DNA of 64,000 nt from Daejeonella oryzae DSM 19973. GTDB lineage: Bacteria > Bacteroidota > Bacteroidia > Sphingobacteriales > Sphingobacteriaceae. The stretch lies in NCBI RefSeq assembly GCF_000422945.1, contig NZ_AUHA01000003.1, positions 248,001 to 312,000 of the forward strand. Reading direction: 5' to 3'. Position numbers and translations under genes: made by a program. Below are positions 2,351-26,462 of the stretch, piece by piece (the first letter of the stretch is position 1; each line of letters starts with the position of its first letter). The notes below the pieces were generated by a model that saw nothing but the letters and a program-made list of their open reading frames with translations, was not told the origin of the DNA and made no database searches.

Positions 2351-4168
2351 ATGAGCTTTAATGAAAATGTTTATAAAAGTATCGTGGAGGTTTCTCCTTT
2401 CCCGGTGTATGTGTGTTCTGGTGATGAAATGATTATTACGGTGGCTAATAACGCCACTTTAAAAGCATGGGGCCGGGATAAATCAGTTATTGGACAACCG
2501 TTTAGTGAAGCATTACCCGAGCTTAAAGACCAGCCTTTTCGAGGTCTTCTCAGTCATGTTTATGAAACCGGAAATACTTATTTCTCAAGTAATGACCGTG
2601 CAGATCTGATGGTAGATGGAAGGATTCAAACATTCTATTTCAAATTTACTTATCAGCCTTTGCGGGATTCAAACAATATCATAACCAGTGTATTGTGTTT
2701 TGCTACAGATGTGACCGAACTAGAACGATCCCGGCAGGCTGTTGAAGCCAGTCAGAATACTTTATATAATATCATTAAGCAAGCGCCGGTCGCTATTTGC
2801 ATTCTGGATGCTAATGATTTAACTGTGCAGGTTGTAAATGATTCTTACCTGGAGTTAGTACGGAAGACCCGATCGGAGCTAGAAAATCAACCTGTATGGG
2901 AGGCTGTTCCTGAAGCCGCAGAATTATATGCTCCCATATTAAACAATGTAATTAAAACGGGAGAAACTTATTATGCCAAGGAACATGAGGTAATTTTAAT
3001 CCGTCAGGGAGCAGAAGAACTGGTATTTATTGATTTTGTTTATGAACCCATTTCGGATATTAACGGTAAAATTAATACTGTAATGGTAATTGGTATGGAA
3101 ATTACCGAGAAAGTCATTGCACGGCGCCTAATAGAAGAAGCCGAGGAACGTGCACGTTTGGCTATTGATGCCGCAGAAATAGGTTCATTCGATCTGGATA
3201 TGGCTACCGGTAATATGGTCACTTCCATCAGGTTCAACCAGATATTTGGTATTAGTTCTACTCCATCCAGAAATACTATTTTAGAACTGATTCATCCGGA
3301 TGATATTGCTTTAAGAGATGCTGCTTATGAATTTGCCCGCAATACCGGTAAACTATTTTACGAAGCAAGGTTTATATGGAAAGACGGCTCCATTCATTGG
3401 GTTCGGGTTCAGGGCAAGCTGTATTTAGGTACAGACACACATCCCACGAGAATTTTAGGTACCGTATTGGATATTACTGAATTCAAGCATTTGCAACAGC
3501 AAAAAGATGATTTTATAAGTGTAGCCAGCCATGAATTAAAAACCCCTCTTACCAGTGTTAAAGCTTCAATGCAGCTGCTTGAAAGACTGATCAGACAAGA
3601 TCCGACTTCTGACAAAGTCTCTTTATTTATTGATAAAGCCAACAGCAGCCTAACAAAAATGCATCATTTGGTCGAGAGTTTGTTAAATGTGTCTAAAATT
3701 GCAGCGGATCAACTGGTGTTGAATAAATCAAATTTTATTGCATCAGAAATGATAAAAGACTGCTGCGAGCATATTCGTTTAACCGGGAAATACAATCTGG
3801 TACTAAGCGGTGATATGGAATTGGTGTTTTATGCTGATAAAAACCGTATCGATCAGGTATTAGTTAATTTTATAAATAACGCAGTAAAATATGCACCGGA
3901 ATCTGATACTATAAATATTCATATCAGCAAAGAAGGAGATAATTCTAAATTGTCTGTTCAGGATTTTGGAAGAGGTATTCCTGCTGAAAAACTTCCGCAC
4001 CTGTTCGAGCGTTATTATCGTGTAGATTCAAGCGGGGTACAATATTCAGGTTTGGGTTTGGGGCTTTACATCAGTGCCGATATTATCGAAAGGCATGGCG
4101 GAAAGATTGGTGTTTATAGCGAAAAAGGCATTGGAAGTACGTTCTGGTTTACTTTACCAAGCGTTTAA
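2351..4168 (+). CDS. PAS-domain sensor histidine kinase (three PAS domains)
   Basis: The 605-residue protein has no membrane segment, so it is a cytoplasmic sensor. Three PAS domains occupy about residues 5-125, 135-255 and 265-380; the third ends with the PAC-type segment RILGTVLDITEFKHL. A HisKA dimerisation domain follows with the phospho-accepting His394 in VASHELKTPL. The HATPase domain carries the N box (NRIDQVLVNFINNAVKYAP), G1 (DFGRGIP), F box (LFERYYRV) and G2 (GLGLGLYIS). No receiver domain is fused and no response regulator is adjacent, so it is an orphan kinase. Its C-terminus closely resembles that of the 1604-residue kinase encoded at 4648-9462, suggesting a shared ancestor. The ligand of the PAS domains is unknown. 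Confidence 0.92.
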   Translation: MSFNENVYKSIVEVSPFPVYVCSGDEMIITVANNATLKAWGRDKSVIGQPFSEALPELKDQPFRGLLSHVYETGNTYFSSNDRADLMVDGRIQTFYFKFTYQPLRDSNNIITSVLCFATDVTELERSRQAVEASQNTLYNIIKQAPVAICILDANDLTVQVVNDSYLELVRKTRSELENQPVWEAVPEAAELYAPILNNVIKTGETYYAKEHEVILIRQGAEELVFIDFVYEPISDINGKINTVMVIGMEITEKVIARRLIEEAEERARLAIDAAEIGSFDLDMATGNMVTSIRFNQIFGISSTPSRNTILELIHPDDIALRDAAYEFARNTGKLFYEARFIWKDGSIHWVRVQGKLYLGTDTHPTRILGTVLDITEFKHLQQQKDDFISVASHELKTPLTSVKASMQLLERLIRQDPTSDKVSLFIDKANSSLTKMHHLVESLLNVSKIAADQLVLNKSNFIASEMIKDCCEHIRLTGKYNLVLSGDMELVFYADKNRIDQVLVNFINNAVKYAPESDTINIHISKEGDNSKLSVQDFGRGIPAEKLPHLFERYYRVDSSGVQYSGLGLGLYISADIIERHGGKIGVYSEKGIGSTFWFTLPSV

Positions 4169-4647: not shown

Positions 4648-7600
4648 TCAAACTTCATTTTGTGCGTTAGAAATTGGAATAGTAAACCAAAATGTTGATC
4701 CTTTTCCTGGTTCACTATTTACACCAACTTTTCCTCCATGCCTTTCTATTATCTGGGCGGATATATAAAGTCCTAAACCAAGACCCGAAAATTTTGCAGA
4801 TGATTCCTGAACCCGGAAAAATCGATCGAATACATAATGTATTTTATCCTGAGAAATTCCAATTCCAAAATCGCGGACTTCCACTTTAACGACCGAATCA
4901 TCAGAACTAACATGAATTTTAATTAAGTCCGATCCCGGCGAATATTTTGCAGCATTCGATAGGAAATTAATAATGACCTGCTCAATACGATGCATATCTG
5001 CAAAAACTACTACGTCTGTGCTTCCTCCGACTTCTATTATATGCCTGGTATGAGAACTTGTAATTTGAAATGAACTTTCTTCAATAGCTTCGCCCATTTT
5101 AAACTCAGTCTTATTAAATTGTAGTTTTCCGGCCTGCAAACGGGTAACATCTAAAAGATCATTTACCAGCTCAGATAATTTATCAGCCTGACGGTTTGCT
5201 TTTTCAATAAAAAGGCTTACCTGCGGAATCTCTTTCTCTTTTTCTGTCAGTCGCTTCACAATTTGTAAAGAAGCTTTCATACTGGTGATAGGAGTTTTAA
5301 GCTCATGGCTTGCAATACTCATAAATTCGTCCTTCTTTTTCATCAGCAATTTGGTTGCCTGCTGAGCCATTTCCTGAGACGTAATATCTGTTAAACTGCC
5401 TATATAACCGGAAAGCTTACCAGTTTTCATCGGATTGCTCATGGCAAGCATCCAGCGATACTGGCCATCAGTACGTTTTATCCGAAATTTAGACTGGTAG
5501 GGAATATGCTTGTTTAAAGCTTCTATAAATTTTTCATACTCTATATTCTGTTCTTCGGGATGAATGACCGAACTCCAGCCCAAATCCATGCTATCTTTAA
5601 AACTGAGACCGGTAAATGTGACCCACTGTTTGTTGACATAGTTGCACAAACCTTTTTCGTTCACTTTCCAAATAAGAAAAGGGGTATTGTCGGCAACCGT
5701 TCTAAAATGATCTTCGCTGATTTTGAGTGCTTCTGAAATTACTTTCTGATCGTGGATGTCTGTATTGGTTCCCACCCACATAATAATCTGATCATCAGAA
5801 TTTCTTTGAGGTAAAGCCCTTGACAAATGCCAGCGGTATTCGCCTTCTTTATTTTTAAGACGCTGCTCCAGAGAAAACTCACGGCCTTCTTTTAAAGCTT
5901 CTTTCCAAATTTCTACCGCCGGGTCAAGATCATCCGGATGAACAATTTTATATCCGGCTTCTTTTATTTCTTCTAATGCAAGACCGCTGTAATCGGTCCA
6001 AACCTTGTTGTAATAACTTCCATTTCCCTCTCCATCGGTGGTCCACACCATTTGAGGGATTACATTTGCAAGTGATAAGAAACGATTTTCATTTGCCCGT
6101 ATTTCTTCATCGGCTTCAACCAAACGGGTCATGTCAAACATAGATCCAAGCATCCGGTAAGGCATTCCATCATCAGACTGAAGAATATAACCGCGATCGA
6201 GAATGTAGGCGTATTGTCCGTCGCTTCTCAGAAAACGGTATTCGGCTGCCCATTGCTTTTGATGGTCATTAATCAGGGTGTTTTGGCTTTCAATAACTTT
6301 TTCACGGTCTTCCGGATGAATTTTACTGATCCAGAATTTGCGTTTATTATCTATCTGATCTATTTTATAACCAAACATATTTTCAAAAGCCTCGCTCCAC
6401 CAGAAATTATTATTGGTTAAATCCCAATCCCAGATGGTATCATTGGTTGCTCTCGAAACCAATCTGAAACGCTCTTCACTTTCTGATAATTTACGTGTTC
6501 TTTCAATAACTTTATCTTCTAGGTTGCTGTTAAGCTTTTTAAGATTTTCGCGAACCTGGATGAGTTCATTGTAATTCTTTTTAAGTTTAACATCTGCCTG
6601 TTTCTTTTCAGTGATATCCGTTAAAGTCATCACCAATCCGTCCTGCATTTTAACAGCTACTATTTCCAGACAAATTTCCTGTTGCTTTCTGGTGATCTGA
6701 ATCTCATTATGTAACGTGTGATTCTTTTCCACAACTTTAACATACTTTTCAAATAATCCACTTTCTACCAGATCAGGAGCCAATTCTTTCAGGCTTTTGT
6801 TAATGATATCATCATTATCCCTCTGTATAATCTTTTCGGACGCATGATTGGCGCTGATGCATTTAAAATCTATAATTTTGTGATCTCCGTTGCGCACCGC
6901 AGTAATGGCTACAATGGCGCTTAAGCTGGAGTTAAAAGTTGCTTTTATAATATCATTCAGCTCTGTAATAGCGGTTATATCTACAAAAGAAAGAATCACA
7001 CCATCGGTAACTTTATCCAAACGGATATAAGGCATAATACGCATCAGGCAATGCGTGCTATTGTTAAGCTCCACTTCCCGTTCCAGCATTCGACCTGTTA
7101 TGAGTACTTTCTTAATTTCATCAACCAGAGATTCATCCGTAATGTTATTAGAGATGTGGGAAATAGGCCGGCCAAGATCCGTATCAATTAAATTTACAAT
7201 CTTAACGGCAGCCGGGTTAAATTTCCGGATATTCAGTGATTGATCAAGAAAAATCTGACCAATATCTGTACTGCGGAAATAATTGTTTAAATCATCATTC
7301 AGCTCAATAAGCTCACGTATTTTCAGCTGATGCTCGGTATTTAACGTATGCAGTTCCTCATTCAGAGATTGCAACTCTTCATTAGAACTCTGCAGCTCTT
7401 CATTAGAAGATAAAAGTTCCTCATTGCTCGACTGAAGTTCCTCATTGGTTGTTTCCATACTTTCTACAGCAAGCTGCAGATTGATACGGGTTTCATTCAG
7501 TTCAGCTTCAAGTTCGGTAACATATTCATTATCCTGCTCTCCCCAAACCGTGGCAGAAGCTTCGTTATCTTTTGCCTTGGTATTTTCTGTACTGCTTTCA

Positions 7601-9462
7601 CTAAAAATTATCAGATGAAAAGGTTTTCCTTCGGCAGGTTTTGCCGGTTTCACAGCAATGTTAACCATCGATCCTTTATCGCCGGAATTTACACGAAGAC
7701 TTTTAAGAAAAATACTTTTGCCTGTTTTTAGGGCTTTTCTTACAGCAGTGTTCAGGCTAACTGAAATTTCCTGCGGAAGCATTTTCAGTATATTTAAACT
7801 CAGCTTTTTATCAGGCAGAGAAAGATATTTATTGAAATCTCCAATGCTATCTTTTATATCATAATTGTGATCGATATAGAGGGCCGTATAGCCCATTTCT
7901 TCCAGAATTAATTTATTAAAATCTTCCTTTATCTGAGTGTTGGTAAGAGTACTGTTCCCTATATCTGAAGATCGTTTAGAATCAATAAATTTGTGAGTAC
8001 GGTCAGAGGTTCTGAAAATTTCCTGATGATTGAATTTGTAACCAGATTTTTTCTTAAAGATTTTCCATTTACTATCAACTTCAAGTAATCCATCTTTTAT
8101 ATATGAGCCGCTTTCGCTTGATCCTAAAAACAAAAAACCTGTATTTTCTAAAGAAAAATGAAAGGTTGCCAACACCCTTTTTTGTAGAGTGTGGTCCATG
8201 TAAATCAGCATGTTTCGGCAGCTGATTAAATCATTTTTAATAAATGGCGGATCTTTTATAATATTGTGTTTTGCAAAAACCACCTGTTTACGAAGCATTG
8301 GAATTACAGAAAAGCCTTTTCCATCTTTTACAAAATACGTTTTGAGAATATCTTCCGGAACGTCTTTTTCGATAGAAGATGGGTACAGATTTTTAGAGCA
8401 AAAGGTAAGATTGCGCTCATCTATATCTGTAGCAAATATTTTTACATCCAGACGCTTGCCTGTTTTTCGTAAATATTTATCAATTAATATGGCGATGGAA
8501 TAAGCTTCTTCACCGGTACTGCATGCACAAACCCAAACTTTAAGAGTCTCTCCATTACTTTTACCATTAATAATATCTGGTATGGCCAGTTCTTCCAAAC
8601 TTTTAAAGGCTAGCGGATCTCTGAAGAATTTAGTAACGTTGATTAGAAAATCCTGTCCGAGAGCTCTTACTTCCTGAGGACTATCCTGCAAATAATTTAC
8701 ATACGATTTCAGGTTTTTAAAACCACCTGTTTGCATTCTTTTACCCAGCCGCCTGATAATTGTTGGCGTTTTGTAAAGTTGGAAATCATGCCCGCTCGAC
8801 TGAAAGATCATCGTAAAAATTTCCTCAAGCAAAGTATCTTCAATTTTACCCTTGTTTAGCGTATGAACAGGGGTTTCTTTTATGTAATTATAAATTTCCT
8901 CGGGCATCATTTCGGGTGGCAAAATGAGGTCAGTAAAACCTGAGGAGATGGCGCTATTAGGCATTCCATCAAATTTTGCTGTTGCCGGATCCTGAACAAT
9001 CACCAATCCTCCGCTTTCTTTTATCGCAGAAATGCCTTTGGTGCCGTCAGTACCGGTTCCGGATAGGATAATTGCTATGGCTTTATCTTTCTGATCAGCA
9101 GCTAAAGAAAAAAGAAAACTATCTATAGCAGTATTGGGAGATTTATCAGCAATTTTCTCAGCAAGCTTCAGCTTGCCGTTGCCAATAGTCATGATTTTAT
9201 TATTCGGAATAATATATACACACTCTTTATGAATAGTCATATCATGCCCGGCTTCAAAAACCTTCATGTGTGTGTGTTTGGAAACCAGTTCCACCAGCAG
9301 ACTTTTATAATCAGGAGAAAGATGCTGGATAACCACAAAAGATAAACTGGCATTCTGAGGCATGTTGTCAAAAAACTCATGAATTGCTTCCAGTCCGCCT
9401 GCTGAGGCACCGATTGCAACTATAAAATGCTCGTTTTTTTCTTTTTTATCCTTTTTTAACAT
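4648..9462 (-). CDS. CheB-CheR-PAS-histidine kinase fusion, probable output of the phytochrome operon
   Basis: This 1604-residue protein fuses several signalling modules. Residues 10-190 are a CheB-type methylesterase with an apparent catalytic triad: Ser20 in GASAGG, His47 in IQHLSPDY and Asp139 in GTGTDGTKG. There is no N-terminal receiver domain. Residues 205-475 are a CheR-type methyltransferase with INVTKFFRDP, the SAM-binding ACSTGEEAYS at about 312-321 and NDLISCRNMLIYM. A coiled coil made of repeated (S/T)NEELQSSNEEL units spans about 655-735. About five PAS domains follow, then HisKA with His1386 (SHELKTP) and a HATPase with the usual N, G1, F and G2 boxes. It starts 32 bases after the phytochrome gene, which lacks any output domain, so the two probably act together. 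No chemoreceptor or flagellar gene is nearby, so the CheB/CheR parts may serve a non-chemotaxis role. Confidence 0.93.
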   Translation of the reverse strand: MLKKDKKEKNEHFIVAIGASAGGLEAIHEFFDNMPQNASLSFVVIQHLSPDYKSLLVELVSKHTHMKVFEAGHDMTIHKECVYIIPNNKIMTIGNGKLKLAEKIADKSPNTAIDSFLFSLAADQKDKAIAIILSGTGTDGTKGISAIKESGGLVIVQDPATAKFDGMPNSAISSGFTDLILPPEMMPEEIYNYIKETPVHTLNKGKIEDTLLEEIFTMIFQSSGHDFQLYKTPTIIRRLGKRMQTGGFKNLKSYVNYLQDSPQEVRALGQDFLINVTKFFRDPLAFKSLEELAIPDIINGKSNGETLKVWVCACSTGEEAYSIAILIDKYLRKTGKRLDVKIFATDIDERNLTFCSKNLYPSSIEKDVPEDILKTYFVKDGKGFSVIPMLRKQVVFAKHNIIKDPPFIKNDLISCRNMLIYMDHTLQKRVLATFHFSLENTGFLFLGSSESGSYIKDGLLEVDSKWKIFKKKSGYKFNHQEIFRTSDRTHKFIDSKRSSDIGNSTLTNTQIKEDFNKLILEEMGYTALYIDHNYDIKDSIGDFNKYLSLPDKKLSLNILKMLPQEISVSLNTAVRKALKTGKSIFLKSLRVNSGDKGSMVNIAVKPAKPAEGKPFHLIIFSESSTENTKAKDNEASATVWGEQDNEYVTELEAELNETRINLQLAVESMETTNEELQSSNEELLSSNEELQSSNEELQSLNEELHTLNTEHQLKIRELIELNDDLNNYFRSTDIGQIFLDQSLNIRKFNPAAVKIVNLIDTDLGRPISHISNNITDESLVDEIKKVLITGRMLEREVELNNSTHCLMRIMPYIRLDKVTDGVILSFVDITAITELNDIIKATFNSSLSAIVAITAVRNGDHKIIDFKCISANHASEKIIQRDNDDIINKSLKELAPDLVESGLFEKYVKVVEKNHTLHNEIQITRKQQEICLEIVAVKMQDGLVMTLTDITEKKQADVKLKKNYNELIQVRENLKKLNSNLEDKVIERTRKLSESEERFRLVSRATNDTIWDWDLTNNNFWWSEAFENMFGYKIDQIDNKRKFWISKIHPEDREKVIESQNTLINDHQKQWAAEYRFLRSDGQYAYILDRGYILQSDDGMPYRMLGSMFDMTRLVEADEEIRANENRFLSLANVIPQMVWTTDGEGNGSYYNKVWTDYSGLALEEIKEAGYKIVHPDDLDPAVEIWKEALKEGREFSLEQRLKNKEGEYRWHLSRALPQRNSDDQIIMWVGTNTDIHDQKVISEALKISEDHFRTVADNTPFLIWKVNEKGLCNYVNKQWVTFTGLSFKDSMDLGWSSVIHPEEQNIEYEKFIEALNKHIPYQSKFRIKRTDGQYRWMLAMSNPMKTGKLSGYIGSLTDITSQEMAQQATKLLMKKKDEFMSIASHELKTPITSMKASLQIVKRLTEKEKEIPQVSLFIEKANRQADKLSELVNDLLDVTRLQAGKLQFNKTEFKMGEAIEESSFQITSSHTRHIIEVGGSTDVVVFADMHRIEQVIINFLSNAAKYSPGSDLIKIHVSSDDSVVKVEVRDFGIGISQDKIHYVFDRFFRVQESSAKFSGLGLGLYISAQIIERHGGKVGVNSEPGKGSTFWFTIPISNAQNEV

Positions 9463-9494
9463 GGGTGTGATGGAAATTGAAGAAATAGATTGTG

Positions 9495-11012
9495 TTAACG
9501 TGTGGCAAATTCGTACAGAAAACTTCTGAAACTTTCTGAAACAGCAATCTCGGCCGGATACCAGGGTTGTGAAGTTTGCTTAACGGTTTCTTTCCAGAGT
9601 TTGAAAGAATTTCTGGGATGATAGGTTTTATTATCCTCTTCAAAATTAATTGCTTCATTCGGATTGCCTCCCCATTTAATGGTTTTAACAAATTCAGGTC
9701 TGAAACCAATTATATATTCGCTTTTACTTTGATTAATCGGAATTACAAGAATACCGCTGGCAACATGCTGTTCATCTCCAGCCTGGTCGTATACATTAGC
9801 CAGATTATTTTCGTGATAAACGGTGTTTGTATTTTTAGCATCAAGCCAGTAGCTCAGGTTTTCTATGAATTCTTTGTTGGGTACATTTCCCACAGTTTCT
9901 ACCCGACCATCGTATAAAACAGCAGCACCTTCTGAATTTAAGATGTTTAAAATATGATTTTCAGAACTTATCAGACCTTTAAGTATATCATCTTCGGTAT
10001 AAATCTGATCAATAATCCGGGCTCTTGCTTCGTTTAGCTTATTGCTAAGCAGATAGGTTTCTTTATTTAAAATGGCCGTTATTTTATTGGATATGATGTT
10101 GGAGAGCAACTCAAAAATAGAACAGATTTCATAGTTTAAACTTTTTTCTGTCTTGCTATGACAAGAAATTAAGCCCCAGAGTTTTTCATCTTTAATAACC
10201 CTTATAGACATGGAAGCTTTTACATCCATGTTTTTAAGATACTCCAGATGCACTTTCGGTACACCCCGCAAATTGCAGTCAGACAGATCCAGAAAAGTTT
10301 GAGTTAGCGGATTAATAACCGGATAAAATCCCACAGGTTTATAATCGCGATCGGGGATAAGCCGATAGGCATTTTTTAAATACAAAGCTCGTGCTTGCTT
10401 TGGAATATCACTTGCGGGGAATTTTAACCCGAGATAACTTTCATATAAGCTTTCATCAATGTCTTCGGCAATGACGGTTCCGTTCCAGTCTTCATCAAAC
10501 TGGTACATCATCACACGGTCAAAGCCTGAAATTTTCTTTAATTCATTGATGGCCGCCTTACAAACCGAATCAAGAGAAGTTCCTTTTTCGATGGCATTTA
10601 CAGAATAGCGTAAATCCTGGTAAACCTTTACAAAGCTATTTTTAATCTCATCATTCAGAAGTTCCATCTCCAGAATAATCAGCTCCTCTTTCTGATGGAT
10701 AATGGTTAAAAGTTCACGGCTTATTTTATTTACTTCAACTCTTAAAGTTAAAGGAATACGATCCTGCAGATTTGTGGCTGCTTTCTCTTTAAATTCCGGT
10801 TCCTGCTGATTATCCAGAAAAGATAAAAATGAATGATTTAGAATAGATTTAACTGAACAATCCCAGAGATTTGCAACATTATCACTGGCCTGAATAACAG
10901 ACAAATCTGATTTATTAAGTACAATTACATATCCGTAAGGCTGAATTGTATTGATTAAATGCAAAGGTAAACTTCCGCAAAAGTCTGAATCATAATTGGT
11001 TCTGCTGTTCAT
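9495..11012 (-). CDS. Bacteriophytochrome photosensory core (PAS-GAF-PHY) without output domain
   Basis: The 505-residue protein is the biliverdin-binding light sensor of a bacteriophytochrome. Cys12 in DFCGSLPLHL sits where bacterial phytochromes attach biliverdin, upstream of the PAS domain (QPYGYVIVLN). The GAF domain keeps Tyr170 (MMYQFDEDWNGTV), the Asp202-Ile203-Pro204 motif in FPASDIPKQAR, His255 (VHLEYLKNM) and His285 (GLISCHS), all residues that contact the chromophore in known relatives. The PHY domain ends with the tongue motif HPRNSFKLWKE. The protein stops about 40 residues after this motif with only a short helix and has no HisKA or HATPase domain. Its start overlaps the end of the heme oxygenase gene by 23 bases, and a CheB-CheR kinase follows 32 bases later. 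This is strong operon evidence for a split photoreceptor. Confidence 0.93.
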   Translation of the reverse strand: MNSRTNYDSDFCGSLPLHLINTIQPYGYVIVLNKSDLSVIQASDNVANLWDCSVKSILNHSFLSFLDNQQEPEFKEKAATNLQDRIPLTLRVEVNKISRELLTIIHQKEELIILEMELLNDEIKNSFVKVYQDLRYSVNAIEKGTSLDSVCKAAINELKKISGFDRVMMYQFDEDWNGTVIAEDIDESLYESYLGLKFPASDIPKQARALYLKNAYRLIPDRDYKPVGFYPVINPLTQTFLDLSDCNLRGVPKVHLEYLKNMDVKASMSIRVIKDEKLWGLISCHSKTEKSLNYEICSIFELLSNIISNKITAILNKETYLLSNKLNEARARIIDQIYTEDDILKGLISSENHILNILNSEGAAVLYDGRVETVGNVPNKEFIENLSYWLDAKNTNTVYHENNLANVYDQAGDEQHVASGILVIPINQSKSEYIIGFRPEFVKTIKWGGNPNEAINFEEDNKTYHPRNSFKLWKETVKQTSQPWYPAEIAVSESFRSFLYEFATR

Positions 11013-11568
11013 GTTGAGTTATCAGAAGCTTAAAATGTTTAAACGTATTATTGGCGCTTTTTACCACCCGCAATTGTTGTTCCCCAGTAGCGGGAAATTG
11101 GTCTAAACTTTCTTTAAATGATTTCCACATAGACATTGTGTTCTCTCCGTAACTATTAAAATAGGTTAGAAACTCCTTGTTTTGCAATCCCAGCCGGTCT
11201 GAAATCATTTTGCTGATTATACTCCCGCCAATGGTTGAACCTTCCATAACATATAAGGCACCGAGCGCATCATAAACATTCTCAATTTGAACTCCGGTTT
11301 GCCTGGGATTTTCCGGGAGTGTGCCGTTTACTGATATTATATCATGAGCTAAGGAAGCAGATTTTCTTCGTTGTGAATAATCATTGAGAATATTTTCGGA
11401 TATGTATTGATCAACCTGCGATTCTATGGGACTATAAAAATTGTAAAACCAGTTTAAAATCTCGCTGTAATCTTCTAATGTATTAACCGATTTTATCTTT
11501 TGAATCAGTACTTTTTCCAGAGCCTGATGAGATTCCAGAGTTTCTTTTTTTAGTTTTTCACTTAACAT
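10990..11568 (-). CDS. bphO: Biliverdin-producing heme oxygenase (BphO type)
   Basis: The 192-residue product matches bacterial heme oxygenases, which open heme to biliverdin, CO and iron in the cytoplasm. The N-terminal helix LKKETLESHQALEKVL carries His14 at the place of the proximal heme ligand. The segment ALYVMEGSTIGGSIISKMI matches the conserved distal helix with its glycine-rich kink. Length is usual for the family. It is the first gene of the operon and overlaps the phytochrome gene by 23 bases, so the enzyme would supply the chromophore of the sensor encoded next. A TATATTTG box lies 43 bases upstream of the ATG on the same strand. Confidence 0.9.
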   Translation of the reverse strand: MLSEKLKKETLESHQALEKVLIQKIKSVNTLEDYSEILNWFYNFYSPIESQVDQYISENILNDYSQRRKSASLAHDIISVNGTLPENPRQTGVQIENVYDALGALYVMEGSTIGGSIISKMISDRLGLQNKEFLTYFNSYGENTMSMWKSFKESLDQFPATGEQQLRVVKSANNTFKHFKLLITQHEQQNQL

Positions 11569-17389: not shown

Positions 17390-20092
17390 TCAGTTAGAAA
17401 TGCTTTCAGATAAATGTTTTTCATACAGCGGTAAAGAGAATGTAAACGTTGAACCTTTTCCATAGTCGCTTTCAATACTTATTAATCCGTGGTGCCGCTC
17501 AATAATTTCTTTGGTAATAAAAAGACCTATACCAAAACCTGAAAAAACGTTTTCGTTTTCGCCTTCAACCCTGTAAAAACGGTCGAATATTTTAAGGCGG
17601 TCGGTTTCAGTAATGCCAATACCAGAATCTTTAATACTTACTGATATCTGGCTATGATCACCGTTGTGCACTTTTACTTCAATTTTTTCATTAACCGGAG
17701 AATACTTGATGGCATTATTGATTATATTAATCAGCACTTGTCCGATTCTGTCTTTGTCGCCATAGATTGCACCAGTGTATTCATGTTTAATATCCAAAGT
17801 ATGCGTGGTTGAAGTGTGAAGAATGTCCTGCACCGTTTCAACTACCAGATCATTAAGATTGAAAATTTGATTATCCAGATTCAGCTTGTTTTCTTTTAGC
17901 CTGGAAAGATCTAAAATCTCATTAATCAGTTTTGTTAATCGTACAACCTGAACTTCTACACGTTTTAATGATGATTTAATGGGTAATGGAGCTAGTTTGG
18001 CTTCCTGCTCTTCTTTCAGCATGCTCAGCAAAAATTGCACATATCCTTTTATAGACGTTACCGGAGTTTTAAGTTCATGGCTAACCATTTTCATGAAGTC
18101 TTCTTTCTGCTTTTCTTCGTCCTTTAACTTTTGAATTTCTGAAGTAACACCCACCCACATCCGGATGGTTCCATCTTCATCCTTAACAGGTGATGCCAGA
18201 TTTAAATGCCATATATACTCGCCGTGTTTATTCAGAAATCGCATTTCCATTTCCAAATTGCTGCCGGTTTCGGCTGCTTTTTGGAAGCGTTTTGAAAACT
18301 CTTCAACTTCATCCGGATGCATGATCTTATGATATCCCAGTTCTTTTATTTCTTCAAAACTCATTCCGGTAAAGTCCATCCAGCTTTTATTGAAATAAAG
18401 AACGCTGCCATCAGACTTGGCATTACTAATTTTAGCAGGCATTAAATCAGCCATCAGACGGAAATGGGATTCACTTTCTTTTAATGCCAATTCAGCAAGT
18501 TTTTGATCATGCACATCAAAACCCACCCCCACGAAACCCGAAAATTCACCGTTGGGTAAATAACGGGGATTCGCCTTAACCATATGCCAGCGGTATTCGC
18601 CATCGTAACGCTTAACGCGGATAGAAGGTAGTAAATACGATTGGCGATTTTTAAAAGCTTCCCTATAAACCTCCATCATCCCAGCCACATCATCCGGATG
18701 TATGATTCCCTCCCAGGCACTTCCTAAAGCTTCCTGAATAGTTTGGCCGGTATAATCAAGCCAGGTTTTATTCCAGTAACTGATGGTGGCTTCCTCGTTT
18801 GGCTCAATATTAAAAACAAACATCGGCACCTGATCTGCCAGTGATTGGAAAAGCTCTTCTTTATCCTTTATTTTCTTGTTATATTCTACATGTTTTGAGA
18901 CCTCTGTGGCAATAATTGACACGCCTTCAATAATATTAGTTGAATCTCTCTGGGCTTGATAAATGAAGGTATAGTGGAATAATTCTTTTTCGCTACCCCG
19001 TACTATATATACCGGAACTTCGTATCCATAATACGGCTGCCCGGTAAAATAAACCTGTTTTAATATATCGTCAAATCCCTGTTCAACCAGTTCGGGCATT
19101 ACTGTTAATAGTGATTTCCCAATTACATCATTTCCCTTACCCCATGTTTCTAAAATGGCTTCATTTGCAACATTAATAAACATTTCTTCTCCCCTTAAAA
19201 TGGCAATCATTGAAGGTGACGATTTAACCATTTCCTGATAGCGATGTTCACTTTCTGCCAGTTTATCAGCCTCGATTTTTTGGAAGGTTATATCTCTGGA
19301 GACAGAAATGATGCTGGTTACTTTTCCGGGTATCGTGATATCCATCACCGGCGATACTTTTACATCCCACCATTTTGGAGTTCCTTTGGCGGTAACACAA
19401 AATGCCTGAAACTGGGAAGGCTCATTTTTTAAAGCTTTCTCTATGGATTCTTTCACGGTTTGCTCATTATCAACTCCCCATAATTCCCACCAAAACTTAT
19501 TGATATATGGCGTAAAATCATCAATCTCCATAATGCAAAGGCCATTGGCATTCATATAATGCAGCCGGCCTCCCGTATCTATTAATTTCATACAGTCCGG
19601 GCTGCTTTCTAATACAGTTTTGTTAAAAGCATAACTTTCTTCAATTTTTTTGCGAGCCAGAACCATATCAGTAACTTCTGTAATTACTGCAATAATCCCC
19701 GAGATAATTCCGTTCTGCTCCTGATAGGGCTGGTATACAAAATTGAAAAAACCCTGTTCCATTTGTTCATTTCTCAGAATTTGCAGTTCGCGTTCATCGG
19801 CATGATATGAAATTCCACTTTGAATTACCTGATCACTAATTTCTTTAATTCCCTGCGATTCAAGATCCGTAAATGATTCAAAAAAGGGTTTTCCAATTAT
19901 ATTCTCATCTTTTTGAAGTAATTGTAAATAGTGTCGGTTTGCATACTCAACAATATAATTTGATCCCTTATAAATACAAAGGGCAACCGGGGTTTTATCG
20001 GTACTCAAAATATTGGATTTTTTTTCACTAGGTATATATTCTCCGCCACCGGCTAAAAATTCAGGTATAGGTTTTTGGGCTGAGAATTTCAT
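17390..20092 (-). CDS. Multi-PAS sensor histidine kinase
   Basis: The ATG at 20092 (MKFSAQKPIP) is preferred over an in-frame TTG nine codons upstream, giving 900 residues. No membrane segment is visible. About five PAS domains run from residue 30 to 650. The last two are of the PAS_3 type, with repeated W-D/GY-x-HPDD signatures (GIIHPDDVAGM, KIMHPDEVEEF), each followed by a PAC segment ending in a mention of WVGVTSEI or FVGVGFDVHD. HisKA carries His672 in MVSHELKTPVTS. The HATPase has NIINNAIKYSP, DSGIGI, IFDRFYRV and FGIGLFI. Like the other kinases here it has no adjacent response regulator. A perfect hairpin (20131-20150) lies just upstream of its start. Confidence 0.92.
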   Translation of the reverse strand: MKFSAQKPIPEFLAGGGEYIPSEKKSNILSTDKTPVALCIYKGSNYIVEYANRHYLQLLQKDENIIGKPFFESFTDLESQGIKEISDQVIQSGISYHADERELQILRNEQMEQGFFNFVYQPYQEQNGIISGIIAVITEVTDMVLARKKIEESYAFNKTVLESSPDCMKLIDTGGRLHYMNANGLCIMEIDDFTPYINKFWWELWGVDNEQTVKESIEKALKNEPSQFQAFCVTAKGTPKWWDVKVSPVMDITIPGKVTSIISVSRDITFQKIEADKLAESEHRYQEMVKSSPSMIAILRGEEMFINVANEAILETWGKGNDVIGKSLLTVMPELVEQGFDDILKQVYFTGQPYYGYEVPVYIVRGSEKELFHYTFIYQAQRDSTNIIEGVSIIATEVSKHVEYNKKIKDKEELFQSLADQVPMFVFNIEPNEEATISYWNKTWLDYTGQTIQEALGSAWEGIIHPDDVAGMMEVYREAFKNRQSYLLPSIRVKRYDGEYRWHMVKANPRYLPNGEFSGFVGVGFDVHDQKLAELALKESESHFRLMADLMPAKISNAKSDGSVLYFNKSWMDFTGMSFEEIKELGYHKIMHPDEVEEFSKRFQKAAETGSNLEMEMRFLNKHGEYIWHLNLASPVKDEDGTIRMWVGVTSEIQKLKDEEKQKEDFMKMVSHELKTPVTSIKGYVQFLLSMLKEEQEAKLAPLPIKSSLKRVEVQVVRLTKLINEILDLSRLKENKLNLDNQIFNLNDLVVETVQDILHTSTTHTLDIKHEYTGAIYGDKDRIGQVLINIINNAIKYSPVNEKIEVKVHNGDHSQISVSIKDSGIGITETDRLKIFDRFYRVEGENENVFSGFGIGLFITKEIIERHHGLISIESDYGKGSTFTFSLPLYEKHLSESISN

Positions 20093-20130
20093 TTTATTCC
20101 AATTTATTCTTTCGACCAATGTAACCTATT

Positions 20131-20150
20131 ATTTCCGCTAATGCGGAAAT
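20131..20150. repeat. Perfect inverted repeat, ATTTCCGC-TAAT-GCGGAAAT
   Basis: Eight-base arms with a 4-base centre lie 39 bases upstream of the kinase start codon. There is no T tract, so it is more likely an operator or leader structure than a terminator. Confidence 0.5.
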
Positions 20151-20286
20151 GGAATTTAATTAGCTGATTTAATTGGATTTAGATGATTTAACCGAAGATT
20201 TAATCAAATTGTAAACTTTTGTAAAGCTTACCCGGTTATGAAGCAATAAACCTGACATAAATCTGAAGGGTGAAGCCTTTTTGAAT

Positions 20287-21045
20287 ATGCTTGATAAAAT
20301 GAATTCAATTTATACCGGAACCAGCGGATTGGTACTTCCGTTTCCAAATAAATTATCTTATCCGCCTGAATTCAGGGATAAAAGCCGGTTGACTTATTAC
20401 AGTTCATTATTTAACAGTATAGAAATCAATAGTTCTTTCTATAAAGTTCCTCAGGCTTCAACGGTTCAGAAATGGGCCGAAAGTGTGCCTCCTAGTTTTC
20501 AGTTTACATTTAAAGTATCGCGGGAGATCACCCATGTAAAATCTCTGGCTTTCAAAAATGAAGATGTGGACCATTTTATGCAGGCCGTAAATGGGGCAGG
20601 TCTCAACAAAGGATGTTTGTTGCTTCAGTTTCCTCCGGGTTTGCAAAGCGAAAATTTAGATCAGCTCGCTAAACTCCTGAACCACATCCGGCAGAATAAT
20701 CCCGGTAATCAATGGAAAATAGCAGTTGAATTCAGAAACCCGTCCTGGTATCAGCAAAATTGTTTGGAGATTCTTCAGCAGAATAATGCAACTATCGTGA
20801 TGCATGATATGCCTTCATCGGGTATTTTTAATATCAATCAGAATACGGATTTTGTGTATTTAAGATTTCATGGCGCTAATGGTGATTACAGGGGCAGCTA
20901 TACAGATGATTTTTTGCATGAATATGCTGAATATATTAGTTCCTGGAAAGAAGAGGGCCGTACGATATATGTTTATTTTAATAATACCCGCGGCGAAGCC
21001 ATTCATAATCTCATCCTGCTAAATAGTTTTTTAGAAGATAAATGA
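20287..21045 (+). CDS. DUF72 family protein (YecE-like)
   Basis: The first ATG (20287) gives 252 residues; a second ATG at 20299 is also possible, and a TTG at 20281 is less likely. The protein has the DUF72 pattern: IYTGTSG near the start, YYSSLFNSIEINSSFYKVP, VPPSFQFTFKVSREITHVK, LLLQFPPGL, VEFRNPSW and a C-terminal YVYFNNT. The family adopts a TIM-barrel fold. Its biochemical role is unsettled. It is cytoplasmic and single, starting a plus-strand group with the small membrane protein and PRC-barrel gene downstream (91 bases and 18 bases apart). Confidence 0.85.
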   Translation: MLDKMNSIYTGTSGLVLPFPNKLSYPPEFRDKSRLTYYSSLFNSIEINSSFYKVPQASTVQKWAESVPPSFQFTFKVSREITHVKSLAFKNEDVDHFMQAVNGAGLNKGCLLLQFPPGLQSENLDQLAKLLNHIRQNNPGNQWKIAVEFRNPSWYQQNCLEILQQNNATIVMHDMPSSGIFNINQNTDFVYLRFHGANGDYRGSYTDDFLHEYAEYISSWKEEGRTIYVYFNNTRGEAIHNLILLNSFLEDK

Positions 21046-21135
21046 GCTGCCGGTTTTATTGATTTAGCCACACTGAAACTTAAATTAAAACCTTATACAG
21101 AAAAATGGTGTTTATGATTAAAAATACATAAAATT

Positions 21136-21324
21136 ATGGCTGAAATACATATACAACGCAAGCGCAAAAACCTTTGGTGGTTATGGCTTTTAATAATTCT
21201 GATCGTTTTAGCAGTAGTGTATTATCTGTACACCAATAACTATTTCGGTCAGCAGGAGTTAAACGTTTTCAACCTTTTATCTCCGGGATTTTCTTCAACG
21301 GAATTAACCACACAATTTTCTTAA
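21136..21324 (+). CDS. Small single-pass membrane protein
   Basis: The 62-residue product has a basic cytoplasmic start (HIQRKRKN), one strong membrane helix at about 14-32 (WWLWLLIILIVLAVVYYLY) and a polar 30-residue tail. I do not recognise a family. It lies only 18 bases upstream of the PRC-barrel stress protein gene, so the two are probably co-transcribed and could act together. Confidence 0.6.
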   Translation: MAEIHIQRKRKNLWWLWLLIILIVLAVVYYLYTNNYFGQQELNVFNLLSPGFSSTELTTQFS

Positions 21325-21342
21325 ACTTCTAAACATATTATT

Positions 21343-22317
21343 ATGTCATCAAACAACAATGATTACAGTCACTTAAAAGAACTTGGGAAAAGCAATTATG
21401 AAATTGCCGACGGAGAATCTGATATCCGGAACTGGGTGGTTAAAAATGAAACGGGTAATATTTTGGGCGAAGTTGATGAACTGATTTTAGACACCAATGC
21501 CGGAAAGGCTGTTTTTATAGTTCTTAATCTGGATAAGAATGAGCTTAATCTGAAAGAAAGAAAAGTATTATTGCCCTTGGAGTATGCCGAGGTTCATCAA
21601 TCATATAAGAATGTAATTTATAAAGGCCTGATGCCTAATGAAATTGCAGTGCTGCCTTCCTACGAAAAAGGAAAATTCTCCAGAAATTCCATTGATCTGA
21701 CCAGAAGTACTTTTTTATCAGCAATGAATAATGATAATTCGCAGCAGGCTCAATCAAAATCTTCTGCTTGTCAATCGGCAGAAGTTCATCCGGATTCTCC
21801 GGTTACATCGGAAAGATCGCATACCGAACTTCCGAATTCAGCTGCGCATAATTTAGACAGGGGAGAAACCCGTAGCTTTGTGGAGCATCAACGTACTAAT
21901 GCATCTGCATCAGATACTAAAGAATTTACCGTTGTCGGGGTTTTTGAGCATTCCCGTCAATCTCAGGCAGTGATCGAATATTTGCTTAATCACGGATTTA
22001 ATAAGGATGATGTTACGGTTTCGACTCGCCAGTCTGAATTGAGCCATGAGCATTACAATCGGGATGAAAGCGGTATAACCCATTTTTTTAAATCCTTATT
22101 TAATAATGAGGATGATGTGAAAAGATATTCTGACGCAACAGAACGTAATTATGTTGTAAGTGTGGATGTACCCTCTTCAGAACAGGCAGAAGAGGTGGCC
22201 AATATTCTTGATCAGCATGGAAGTTTAAACATGAGGAATGATCATAATGCGTTGGTCAATTCTGCTGATGGTAAAACAGGATATTCCAGGGTGTTTAAAC
22301 GTCACAGCAATAAGTAA
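21343..22317 (+). CDS. PRC-barrel and general-stress (YflT-like) domain protein
   Basis: The 324-residue cytoplasmic protein has a PRC-barrel domain at about 20-105 (DIRNWVVKNETGNILGEVDELILD, then KVLLPLEYAEV). A low-complexity polar linker follows at about 115-180. At about 188-275 is a domain that starts EFTVVGVFEHSRQSQAVIEYLLNHGF, like the heat-induced stress protein YflT/17M module. PRC-barrel proteins with such tails are common stress proteins in this phylum. No catalytic residues are visible. A terminator follows 45 bases later. Confidence 0.8.
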   Translation: MSSNNNDYSHLKELGKSNYEIADGESDIRNWVVKNETGNILGEVDELILDTNAGKAVFIVLNLDKNELNLKERKVLLPLEYAEVHQSYKNVIYKGLMPNEIAVLPSYEKGKFSRNSIDLTRSTFLSAMNNDNSQQAQSKSSACQSAEVHPDSPVTSERSHTELPNSAAHNLDRGETRSFVEHQRTNASASDTKEFTVVGVFEHSRQSQAVIEYLLNHGFNKDDVTVSTRQSELSHEHYNRDESGITHFFKSLFNNEDDVKRYSDATERNYVVSVDVPSSEQAEEVANILDQHGSLNMRNDHNALVNSADGKTGYSRVFKRHSNK

Positions 22318-22362
22318 AATACAGCTCATTAAGCCGTTAATGGCTCTATATTATTTTTTTCT

Positions 22363-22397
22363 GAAAAAGGGCAGGTCCGAAAGGTCTGCCTTTTTTT
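22363..22397 (+). terminator. Intrinsic terminator after the PRC-barrel gene
   Basis: AAAAAGGGCAGG and TCTGCCTTTTTTT form a stem with a GAAA-containing loop (about 22377-22384) and one bulged base, followed by a T tract. The 250 bases from here to the next gene show nothing else recognisable. Confidence 0.85.
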
Positions 22398-22650
22398 ATA
22401 GATTTATGCTCAATCAGCAATGTGCTATTTCTCGTTTCCAGTATCTGATAATCAGGTTTTTGTGGCATGACAATAGCGTATAACGTAATGTCGTGAACCT
22501 CTAAAACAAAATTTACGTAATATGGATCGTGATTTAAAAACCTGAATAGATACGGATAAGTTTTCCTGACAAATTCAGATCAAATAATATTTTAAAATAA
22601 TAAGCAATAAACTCTGGATTGATTTGCTGATTATGTCTTAAACAATTAAT

Positions 22651-25335
22651 ATGAGCACATCAAATCCTGCCAATGCATATCCTGAAAGCATACTTCCGGC
22701 AAGTTCTAAACATGCGGAAGAGACATTAAAAGATAATGAAGCTAAATATCGTTCTTTAGTTGAAAGCTCTATGGATGCCATTCTGCTGACGGTTAAAGAC
22801 GGTCAGATTCTGGAAGCAAACGCGGCTGCATGCGAAATTTTTCAAATGACATTGGATGAAATTTGCAAAGCCGGACGAGCAGACCTGGCAGATATCACAG
22901 ATCCCAGGTTAGCACCACTGCTTAAAGAACGGATTCTTAACGGTAGGGCCAGAGGAGAAATTACCTGTAAAAGGAAAGATGGAACCCGGTTTGAAGCCGA
23001 GATTACTTCTGTTATTTTTGTAGATAGACATGGACTGGAAAAAACGTCTATGACCATAAGAGATATCTCTGAAAGAAAAAAAGCAGAAGAAAATCTTGTA
23101 GCTACTTCTACTGCTTTGCAGAAAGCATTAAATGATCTGAATAAGCTGATGAATTCTTCAATGGATGTGATTTGTTCCAGGGATGAAAAAGGAATATTTG
23201 TTCACGTAAATGCTGCTTCCGAACAAGTTTTAGGTTATAAGCCGGATGAATTAATTGGCAGAAACTATATTGATTTTATTTTTCCGGACGATATGCAGCG
23301 AAGTGTTCGGGCGGATGAAGAAATTAAAAGTGTAGTACCTGATATTGTTTTAGAAAACAGATTTATTCACAAAAATGGAAGCCTGGTTAATCTTAACTGG
23401 TCGCTGCTCTGGGATGAAAAAGAGAATTTGCTGTATGGAATAGCCAAAGATGCAACAGAGAAAAAAATTCTTGAAAAAGCATTTGATGTTGAAAGACAGC
23501 GTTTTTTGGATATGTATTCTCAATCCCCATCCTGCATGGGAATTTTAAAAGGTCCAAATCATATCTATGAAATGGCCAATCCTCTTTATTTGCAATTGGT
23601 TGGTAAAACGGATATCATTGGCAAGTCTGTTAAAGAGGCCTTACCGGAAGTGGAAAGACAGGGAGTTTTAGAATTTCTGGATAATGTCTATAACACCGGC
23701 AAAACCTTTTATGCCAATGAAATGCTTATCCAATTCGATACGCATGCTTCTGGGAAATTGGTTGATACCTATCTTAATTTCATTTGTCAGGCTCATCGCA
23801 ATGCGGACGACCAGATTGATGGCATTTTCTTTTTCGCCATAAATGTTACCGAACAGGTTTTATCACGAAAAAGAATAGAGGAAAGTGAAAAGCAATACAA
23901 GCAGATCGTAGAAACTGCGCAGGAAGGAATATGTCTGATCGATGAAAAAGATAAAATTACGTTCGTAAATACAAAAATGGCAGAGATATTAGAATATTCA
24001 GCCGCTGAAATTACTGGAAAAGAAATCTATTCTTTTTTGGATGAGGAGGGAAAAGAGATAGCCAGGAATCTGATGCTGAAGAAAAAAGAGGATCATGCGG
24101 AAGAAAGGCATTTCAAGTACATATCGAAATCAGGTAAAGCCATCTGGACAAATGTATCTGCAACACCTCTTTTTAACGAAGATGGAACTTACAATGGCGC
24201 ACTGGCCATGGTTACAGATATTACCGATCGTAAAATGTTTGAGCAAAATCTGGCATCTAAACATGAAAGTTTAAAACAAGCGCAAGCCATAGCTCGTGTG
24301 GGCAATTGGGAAATCGATCTGGCGCATAACATCCATACCTGGTCTGATGAGATCTACAACATATTTGGAATTAAAAAAGCCGACGTCATTGCTAATGAAG
24401 AGAATTTTATGGGATTTTGCCATCCAGAAGACTTGAAATACGCCTATCAACGTATAGACGAAGGCTTTAAAAATTTGCAAAATATCACTTTTGAATTTAG
24501 GTTCATACGCAACGATGGAAGTGTTCGGTATTCATATAATGAATGGAAATATAAATTTGACAAAAACGGCAATGCAGTATCATTGTTTGGTATTTTTCAG
24601 GATGTTACAGACAGAAAACTGAGTGAAATAGAGCGTGCAAAAATTGTAAATGATCTCATTCTTCGTAACAATGATCTGGAGCAGTTTACATATATTGTTT
24701 CTCATAATCTGCGTGCTCCGGTAGCAAACATTCTGGGTATAGAAAACTTGTTAAATGATCCTGGTCTTTCTCCCCGGGATGTAATTTTTCTAAAGGAAGG
24801 GCTTCGCCAATCTGTTAACGGACTGGACAGTGTTGTTAGAGATCTAAGTCAAATCATCCAGGTTAGAAATCAGATTAATGAAACCAAAGAAAACATACTT
24901 TTTGCTGAAATAGTAGATGAAATAAAAATCAGTATCAAGAATTTAATTGATAGAGAAAATATAAATATCGAATCTGATTTTAATGAGATTGAGAGCATAA
25001 TAACTTTAAAAAGCTATTTATACAGTATTTTTTATAATCTGATATCCAACAGCATAAAATACCGTCAAAAACATATTCCGGGAATTATTACAATTAAAAG
25101 CCGCCGGTCAGAAAATAAAATTGAGCTAATTTTTACGGATAACGGAATGGGCATTGATCTTCAAAAAATTGGCGACCAGGTTTTTGGACTGTATAAACGG
25201 TTTCATTTAAATATTGAAGGAAAGGGAATGGGCCTTTTCATGGTTAAAAATCAGGTTGAAACCCTTGGCGGGAAAATATCTATTCAAAGCGAAGTAAATA
25301 AAGGAACAGAATTTACAATTGAATTTGTATGCTAA
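22651..25335 (+). CDS. Multi-PAS sensor histidine kinase with SHNLRAPV-type H box
   Basis: The 894-residue soluble protein has about five PAS domains from residue 25 to 665, with PAC-like ends such as MTIRDISERKKAEEN, GIAKDATEKKIL, MVTDITDRKMFE and GIFQDVTDRKLSE. The dimerisation domain has His685 in YIVSHNLRAPVAN, a variant H box (SHNLRAP rather than SHELKTP) seen in a separate Bacteroidota group. The ATPase domain has SIFYNLISNSIKYRQ, DNGMGID, VFGLYKRFH and GKGMGLFMVK. There is no receiver domain and no adjacent response regulator. The neighbouring oxidoreductase gene begins 79 bases downstream with its own ribosome-binding-like sequence. Confidence 0.92.
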   Translation: MSTSNPANAYPESILPASSKHAEETLKDNEAKYRSLVESSMDAILLTVKDGQILEANAAACEIFQMTLDEICKAGRADLADITDPRLAPLLKERILNGRARGEITCKRKDGTRFEAEITSVIFVDRHGLEKTSMTIRDISERKKAEENLVATSTALQKALNDLNKLMNSSMDVICSRDEKGIFVHVNAASEQVLGYKPDELIGRNYIDFIFPDDMQRSVRADEEIKSVVPDIVLENRFIHKNGSLVNLNWSLLWDEKENLLYGIAKDATEKKILEKAFDVERQRFLDMYSQSPSCMGILKGPNHIYEMANPLYLQLVGKTDIIGKSVKEALPEVERQGVLEFLDNVYNTGKTFYANEMLIQFDTHASGKLVDTYLNFICQAHRNADDQIDGIFFFAINVTEQVLSRKRIEESEKQYKQIVETAQEGICLIDEKDKITFVNTKMAEILEYSAAEITGKEIYSFLDEEGKEIARNLMLKKKEDHAEERHFKYISKSGKAIWTNVSATPLFNEDGTYNGALAMVTDITDRKMFEQNLASKHESLKQAQAIARVGNWEIDLAHNIHTWSDEIYNIFGIKKADVIANEENFMGFCHPEDLKYAYQRIDEGFKNLQNITFEFRFIRNDGSVRYSYNEWKYKFDKNGNAVSLFGIFQDVTDRKLSEIERAKIVNDLILRNNDLEQFTYIVSHNLRAPVANILGIENLLNDPGLSPRDVIFLKEGLRQSVNGLDSVVRDLSQIIQVRNQINETKENILFAEIVDEIKISIKNLIDRENINIESDFNEIESIITLKSYLYSIFYNLISNSIKYRQKHIPGIITIKSRRSENKIELIFTDNGMGIDLQKIGDQVFGLYKRFHLNIEGKGMGLFMVKNQVETLGGKISIQSEVNKGTEFTIEFVC

Positions 25336-25414
25336 ACATCCCGAATTAGATCGTTAGTTTGGATAGCAAGTTAAAGTTTAGCAATACTGCGCAGATTGAT
25401 TTAAAGGAATAATT

Positions 25415-26335: not shown

Positions 26336-26392
26336 TCTTTAAGTAATTCGTGAAAATATTCTTTAGCGGATTAGGAGAATTAGAATTTTATT

Positions 26393-26434
26393 AAAAAAAT
26401 GGATCAGATTTTTTAAGCCATAAAATCTGATCCA
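26393..26434 (-). terminator. Intrinsic terminator for the PepSY-like gene (and possibly the oxidoreductase)
   Basis: A perfect 13-bp stem (TGGATCAGATTTT at 26400-26412 with AAAATCTGATCCA at 26422-26434) is preceded by seven A on the plus strand. This places a T tract after the hairpin for minus-strand transcription. Confidence 0.88.
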
Positions 26435-26462
26435 TTGATAAATTGATATCATTTAACAGGCT

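Follow-up and report, generated by a model that had tools for sequence, protein, structure and literature searches.

A phytochrome whose chain comes to an end directly after its photosensory module raises the question of how light perceived by such a protein could reach an output. This situation is found in Daejeonella oryzae DSM 19973 (contig NZ_AUHA01000003.1), within a 64,000-nucleotide (nt) window, the whole stretch of DNA analysed here, to whose positions all coordinates refer. Three minus-strand open reading frames (ORFs) are present:

10990-11568, minus strand: bphO-like heme oxygenase, 192 amino acids (aa) (Pfam Heme_oxygenase, 2.1e-18)
9495-11012, minus strand: kinase-less phytochrome, PAS-GAF-PHY only, 505 aa (Pfam PAS_2, GAF, PHY 8.8e-47)
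4648-9462, minus strand: CheB-CheR-PAS-HisKA-HATPase partner kinase, 1604 aa (Pfam CheB, CheR_N, CheR, several PAS, HisKA and HATPase_c)

The heme oxygenase and phytochrome genes share 23 nt (10990-11012) and 32 nt separate the phytochrome stop from the kinase start, in agreement with an earlier prediction made for this locus (hereafter the original prediction), which claimed overlaps or distances of at most 32 bases and a large kinase carrying CheB and CheR modules, both of which are found. We consider it probable, from comparison of these genes with their relatives, that they encode a phytochrome two-component system in which sensor and CheB-CheR kinase reside on separate proteins and CheR and CheB would serve adaptation. 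The partnership of phytochrome and kinase is strongly supported by conservation, phylogeny and a block of kinase domains specific to the partners.

Comparing gene neighbourhoods in related genomes, the check proposed with the original prediction, gave a clear answer. The scan of the window's family covered 301 genomes, 172 of them with a PHY match, and from the best matches listed we fetched 48 loci whose open frames did not exceed ~560 aa and four in which they were longer. A CheB-CheR kinase lies directly downstream and on the same strand in 49/49 of the kinase-less phytochromes examined in this family (these 48 and that of the window), with gaps of −56 to 41 nt. Within this family, none of 30 canonical phytochrome kinases adjoins a CheB-CheR kinase, in loci most of which span only ~3.5 kb; a number of them adjoin an ORF of ~139 aa. 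A second scan, over named genomes, yielded 80 loci, six of them canonical (five cyanobacterial, one planctomycete) and 74 kinase-less, and the kinase was located directly downstream of 71 of the latter. At locus L171 the order is reversed, the kinase being upstream and in broken pieces, while at L155 the kinase following the phytochrome is shortened. The planctomycete locus (L176), at first sight an exception to the pairing, reads by eye as a canonical phytochrome kinase. In a draw across the phylum, 40 of 395 genomes had PHY, and the one kinase-less hit outside the window's family (genome G332) again showed heme oxygenase, phytochrome and CheB-CheR kinase. Hosts of the pair include Mucilaginibacter, Pedobacter, Chitinophaga, Flavisolibacter and Pontibacter.

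Merging the family and named-genome loci left 98 unique pairs. A heme oxygenase gene stands immediately upstream in 27 of them. In a second family, which includes loci identical to named Chitinophagaceae records, 6/15 pairs are both directly preceded by a heme oxygenase gene and directly followed by a response regulator gene. Besides heme oxygenase and response regulator, no other gene cluster recurred in more than 11/98 loci between four genes upstream and six downstream, and general synteny was therefore rejected as the cause of the pairing. The association of phytochrome and kinase is far beyond chance.

The phytochrome itself retains what is expected of a photosensory module. It carries the N-terminal Cys12, the motif PASDIP (residues 199-204), the tongue motif PRNSF (466-470) and the conserved GAF residues, which bears out the set of chromophore-contacting residues claimed in the original prediction, as does the claimed stop after the PHY tongue, since a single 19-residue PHY helix follows before the chain ends, according to the secondary structure assigned by DSSP to an AlphaFold2 model. 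Two features delimit the protein:

10977-10979, minus strand: codon of Cys12, the expected biliverdin-binding cysteine (Cys in 49/49 family homologues and 37/37 of a second set)
9501-9557, minus strand: C-terminal PHY helix, aa 486-504, at which the chain ends instead of continuing into HisKA (DSSP of the model)

Most residues of PASDIP and of the tongue are likewise conserved in 49/49 family homologues. The model, built from 37 sequences, reached a predicted local distance difference test (pLDDT) score of 87.5, and Foldseek matched it to the photosensory module of Agp1 with a template modelling (TM) score of 0.88. The best-matching solved structures for the protein are those of phytochromes, for the most part photosensory modules. 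Architecture (PAS_2-GAF-PHY) and motifs (chromophore Cys, PASDIP, PRxSF tongue) are thus those of a bacteriophytochrome photosensory module. The protein falls outside the known full-length classes: the NCBIfam BphP equivalog scores 281 bits against a cut-off of 1040, covering profile positions 6-504 of 622, a Pfam scan detected no HisKA as in canonical bacteriophytochrome histidine kinases, and the chain ends with helix 486-504 without the PAS9 of type 3 bacteriophytochromes. It is predicted, from these motifs and the model, to bind biliverdin at Cys12 and to photoconvert between red and far-red forms. The 3.45-Mb genome contains no other PHY match. An attempt to obtain a docking clue from phytochrome-specific positions was abandoned: of 39 such positions 27 are in GAF, and many merely reflect the divergence of Bacteroidota canonical phytochromes.

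A trivial origin of this truncated form, namely a frameshift or a sequencing or assembly error that split a normal phytochrome kinase, had been named in the original prediction as the way in which its interpretation could fail. It was excluded, because the phytochrome contains no HisKA and 98/98 unique paired relatives end no more than seven residues beyond the end point of the window's protein, and the kinase-less phytochromes form a clade of their own; we regard its probability as negligible. In the phytochrome tree, the 98 kinase-less sequences, together with three exceptions, split from 35 canonical ones with a local support of 100. In the tree built on the CheB-CheR part of the kinases (94 paired, 21 unpaired), the paired label changes 2 times versus 19.7 when shuffled, the paired kinases forming clades of 81 and 13 (the printed members of the latter being Pontibacter) with unpaired clades between and outside them. 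The figure of 94 omits four pairs with kinases shorter than 1300 aa (L103, L132, L138 and L146), and the 21 unpaired kinases are taken from 25 unpaired long CheR ORFs counted in the same 48 genomes. Since the phytochromes constitute a separate clade and the paired label changes only twice, the pair is, on the evidence of both trees, an old and stable partnership and no recent gene break. Judged from the same comparisons, the arrangement is widespread and old in Bacteroidota, with representatives in Sphingobacteriaceae, Chitinophagaceae and Pontibacter.

To see which part of the kinase could receive the signal, we searched the 94 paired kinases, and the 21 unpaired CheB-CheR kinases encoded in the same genomes, for each segment of the window's kinase. 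The segments are as follows:

8878-9435, minus strand: CheB methylesterase domain, aa 10-195, without receiver, with S20, H47 and D139 (Pfam, residue check)
8083-8850, minus strand: CheR methyltransferase domain, aa 205-460, with R281, D346 and the RNxLIY motif (Pfam, residue check)
7573-7920, minus strand: PAS_A, a PAS-like segment after CheR, aa 515-630 (no Pfam match; PAS-like by eye)
7303-7521, minus strand: Glu-rich NEEL heptad coil, aa 648-720, candidate methylation helix (heptad run and model)
6973-7290, minus strand: PAS_B (Pfam PAS_10), aa 725-830 (Pfam, segment mapping)
6583-6915, minus strand: PAS_C, aa 850-960, in the partner-specific block (segment mapping, block search)
6448-6585, minus strand: signalling helix, aa 960-1005, LExKVxERTxELxxSEERF, partner-specific (94/94 paired, 0/21 unpaired)
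6103-6447, minus strand: PAS_D (Pfam PAS_3), aa 1006-1120, in the partner-specific block (94/94 paired, 2/21 unpaired)
5368-6072, minus strand: PAS_E and PAS_F, aa 1131-1365, number varying among partners (segment mapping)
5125-5343, minus strand: HisKA with phospho-acceptor His1386 (Pfam, residue check)
4672-5019, minus strand: HATPase_c (Pfam)

No membrane family appears among the Pfam matches of this protein, to which no transmembrane predictor was applied. Paired and unpaired kinases alike possess CheB, CheR, PAS_A, the coil and, mostly, PAS_B, whereas the signalling helix, which we take by its ERT motif to be of the kind known under that name, separates the two groups completely in both searches. 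PAS_C is present in 94/94 paired kinases versus 1/21 unpaired ones by exclusive assignment, or 6/21 by an independent search with a refined profile; HisKA is found in 94/94 and 13/21, respectively. When a profile of the PAS_C-helix-PAS_D block was searched in 221 genomes, 41 full-length matches were obtained (expectation value (E) ≤1.5e-98), the next best match (4.7e-48) covering PAS_D only, and a phytochrome was adjacent in 39/41; 33 of the 41 are pairs already counted in the same genomes, and among the eight others the phytochrome is directly upstream in six. The second family added 16 full-length matches and one slightly shorter, with an adjacent phytochrome in 15/17. Altogether 54/58 block-bearing kinases adjoin a phytochrome, a figure in which only 16 kinases are independent of earlier loci, since, apart from the 33, four of the eight remaining matches and five of the second family's 17 had been counted before; a phytochrome accompanies 12 of these 16 (2/4 in the window's family, 10/12 in the second). 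A kinase with half the block, at L269, has no phytochrome. The shortened kinase of L155 (the same as L268) is particularly informative, lacking CheB, CheR, a recognisable PAS_A, the coil and PAS_B but keeping PAS_C-helix-PAS_D-PAS_E-HisKA-HATPase, still behind a heme oxygenase and a phytochrome gene. This loss of domains points away from CheB-CheR and towards the PAS_C-helix-PAS_D block as the docking place, and this block is, from its distribution, the most likely receiving surface for the phytochrome. As supporting evidence, evolutionary distances of phytochromes and kinases correlate with an r of 0.89; after removal of the CheB-CheR signal, the residual correlation amounts to 0.38 for PAS_C, 0.36 for PAS_A, 0.30 for PAS_D and 0.26 for the helix, with PAS_B, HisKA and HATPase near zero and the coil at −0.24.

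Two other kinases encoded in the window may be mentioned beside this one. A 605-aa PAS-HisKA-HATPase kinase (2351-4168, plus strand) lies close to where the phytochrome operon ends, on the opposite strand, with a HisKA motif that, judged by eye, is like that of the partner kinase. At 57971-59047 (minus strand), a 358-aa PAS_10-HisKA-HATPase kinase contains a PAS domain of the same Pfam family as PAS_B.

The CheB and CheR modules seem to be catalytically intact. The CheB triad, the CheR Arg, Asp and RN motif and the HisKA His are identical in 94/94 paired kinases, the roles of the methylesterase and methyltransferase residues being presumably those of Salmonella CheB and CheR; with CheB, CheR, PAS, HisKA and HATPase on one chain, the protein is a CheB-CheR fusion histidine kinase. 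The own genome contains four CheR genes and gave 0 MCPsignal matches, the search for this domain of methyl-accepting chemotaxis proteins (MCPs) being positive in 7/14 control genomes, and the absence of MCPs rules out a role in chemotaxis in this genome. A candidate substrate lies between PAS_A and PAS_B. The NEEL coil shows a five-heptad run in 93/94 paired kinases, is nearly invariant across 37 sequences, is modelled as one continuous helix of ~90 residues and presumably resembles the methylation helices of chemoreceptors. By hand matching in 48 genomes, 72/74 long CheR ORFs have the coil, and all 74 coil matches listed down to E 1.5e-14, with a profile built from CheR kinases, fall in long CheR ORFs. 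A related Glu-pair coil is present in the kinases next to stand-alone CheR genes in 5/6 clusters, four of the six having been picked for a known coil and the two from the own genome not. The pattern QQAEELExQQEELRxTNEEL occurs in the kinases next to the stand-alone CheR genes of loci L213 and L215-L218, which may represent the same methylation device in unfused form.

A precedent for methylating a kinase outside chemotaxis is the action of RsbM on the signalling helix of RsbK (PMC4574943, in the part available). Given the intact CheB and CheR, the co-occurrence of coil and CheR and this precedent, we infer by analogy that CheR and CheB may tune the kinase by methylating the candidate NEEL coil, as RsbM does on RsbK, and propose a built-in adaptation.

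Putting these elements together, the heme oxygenase, predicted from its family to synthesize biliverdin, would supply it to the PAS-GAF-PHY protein, which would bind it at Cys12 and switch between red- and far-red-absorbing forms. Because the phytochrome has no output domain, it is proposed to signal in trans, by protein contact, to the CheB-CheR-PAS kinase of the neighbouring gene, whose PAS_C-signalling helix-PAS_D region would receive the signal. Light would then alter autophosphorylation of His1386 and phosphotransfer to a single-domain response regulator, while CheR and CheB would add and remove methyl groups on the NEEL coil, resetting the gain of the kinase under steady light. Conservation, phylogeny and the domain block lend strong support to the proposal of the original prediction that the kinase is the output of the phytochrome on another chain; direct contact between both proteins is what we infer from them. 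The complete picture, a light receptor acting in trans on a soluble kinase endowed with its own CheR/CheB-NEEL memory and providing adaptation to red light without chemoreceptors or arrays, is one that we put forward tentatively, as a possibility suggested by sequence and analogy.

As for the last step, a single-domain response regulator gene is found within two genes and on the same strand in 17/98 pairs by strict count, and in 35 loci by a loose cluster count on any side; one such regulator, scanned by Pfam, consists of a receiver domain only. Homologues of the regulator with 64, 60 and 42% identity are encoded elsewhere in the own genome, unlinked to the pair, and the response regulator here would be one of these.

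Several observations weigh against this interpretation. The window kinase has no adjacent response regulator, and the kinase-less phytochrome of L170 is solitary. No fused phytochrome-CheB-CheR protein occurred among the matches listed in the family and phylum scans, and thus no Rosetta-stone support was gained. Four block-bearing kinases (L205, L207, L263 and L266), all among the 16 new ones, lack an adjacent phytochrome; at L207 the heme oxygenase gene is shortened and the phytochrome gone, in what looks like one deletion, and at L205 the phytochrome is simply absent. Neither of the two proteins, then, strictly depends on having the other next to it. Paired kinases had served to build the block profile itself, and the comparison with unpaired ones is limited to the CheB-CheR kinases of the same 48 genomes. 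The distance correlations derive from related sequences and are no proof by themselves, and PAS_A, although shared with the unpaired kinases, has a residual correlation close to that of PAS_C. Concerning the coil, weaker coil-like matches (2.9e-14 and weaker) are located in ORFs without CheR, and of the two stand-alone CheR clusters of the own genome one has the coil and the other (L214) has a neighbouring kinase without a detectable one.

Other explanations have to be weighed against these data. CheB and CheR could themselves be the light-regulated output, the phytochrome controlling the methylation of other proteins while the kinase part serves other inputs, and the original prediction had left open that light would control methylation. 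Active sites fully conserved in 94/94 partners, in a genome that offers no chemoreceptor as substrate, would fit such an output. Nevertheless, L155 keeps phytochrome, HisKA and HATPase without CheB, CheR, coil and PAS_B, and the unpaired kinases have the same CheR (21/21), CheB (20/21) and coil (21/21), so CheB-CheR is not what tracks the phytochrome. Moreover, the coil disappeared together with CheB and CheR at L155, as expected of an adaptation device, albeit in a single event; as CheB, CheR, coil, PAS_A and PAS_B were lost there together while the pairing survived, the data seem to fit a built-in adaptation device slightly better than a light output. Light-controlled methylation of other proteins is thus unlikely, though it deserves consideration.

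A slightly smaller probability is assigned to mere co-transcription, in which the phytochrome would act on some other protein and the kinase PAS domains would sense other signals. The 4/58 block-bearing kinases without a neighbouring phytochrome and the varying number of PAS domains after PAS_D speak in its favour, but the two genes stay in order and close together in families whose other neighbouring genes vary, the block specific to the partners accompanies the phytochrome, and the phytochrome itself lacks an output domain. The end of the chain after PHY, without any effector domain, would also be compatible with a non-signalling chromoprotein, either a light screen or a sink for biliverdin. 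Nevertheless, 49/49 homologues conserve the motif of the PHY tongue, which is required to relay the signal and not to bind the pigment, and the kinase is the constant neighbour, which makes such a function very improbable. A phytochrome two-component system on separate proteins hence continues to be the explanation that we favour.

Among known systems, the canonical bacteriophytochrome kinases Agp1, DrBphP and PaBphP share the PAS-GAF-PHY fold and the chromophore motifs with the protein described here but have HisKA-HATPase on the same chain, whereas here the chain stops at the PHY helix and belongs to a separate clade. Type 3 phytochromes such as XccBphP and RpBphP1 also lack a kinase output. 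RpBphP1 passes its signal on through contact with PpsR2 (PMC6899989), and the PAS9 of XccBphP is thought to mediate protein interaction (PMC11021371); unlike the present protein, they keep PAS9 or PAS9-HOS after PHY, and the parts of these sources that were available name no CheB-CheR kinase as a partner. The RsbK-RsbM-RsbY system of Bacillus cereus likewise includes a methyltransferase acting on the signalling helix of a sensor kinase, as proposed here, but RsbM is, in the available part of its source, a separate protein without paired methylesterase, while in our case CheR and CheB are fused to the kinase and the phytochrome sensor is in trans. CheB-CheR-PAS kinases without phytochrome possess the same CheB-CheR-PAS_A-coil unit, mostly with PAS_B, and miss the block (helix 0/21, PAS_D 2/21). 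In Myxococcus macrosporus, an operon comprises a heme oxygenase, a bacteriophytochrome, a response regulator and an extra histidine kinase; there too the kinase is separate, but the phytochrome has a histidine kinase domain of its own (PMC11832031, in the part available). As far as the available sections go, PMC2890560 reports a CheB-CheR hybrid and phytochromes in one genome with no link drawn between them, and PMC8396549 touches on phytochromes only in passing. No description of a phytochrome/CheB-CheR kinase pair was found among the papers listed in searches of an open-access library, subscription papers and preprints being mostly outside this scope, so that one may be in print. The arrangement, called unusual in the original prediction, is so with respect to the literature covered and not in these bacteria, where it is widespread and old. 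Phytochrome two-component signalling itself is known; what appears to be new is its distribution over a sensor and a CheB-CheR kinase on separate chains.

The remainder of the window contains further genes of note. The region 17390-30907 is rich in signalling genes, with two multi-PAS kinases (909 and 894 aa) and a Reg_prop kinase adjoining a LuxR-type regulator. A likely Thoeris anti-phage system occupies 61801-63760, its SIR2-STALD protein matching ThsA (8.9e-202); 4 nt after this ThsA-like gene, a 162-aa ORF has, by eye, the look of a TIR-type ThsB.

Phytochromes are usually treated as one-chain proteins joining sensor and output, and here a whole clade across several Bacteroidota families uses a dedicated partner. 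This constitutes a natural split system in which to ask how PHY passes a signal on without a continuous helix into the kinase, and the kinases of L205, L207, L263 and L266 are natural cases for asking what drives a partner-type kinase without light. If true, a natural two-protein kinase under red-light control would also be a useful optogenetic starting point. Since light is a stimulus that can be switched at will, the role of CheB and CheR in bacteria devoid of chemoreceptors becomes testable.

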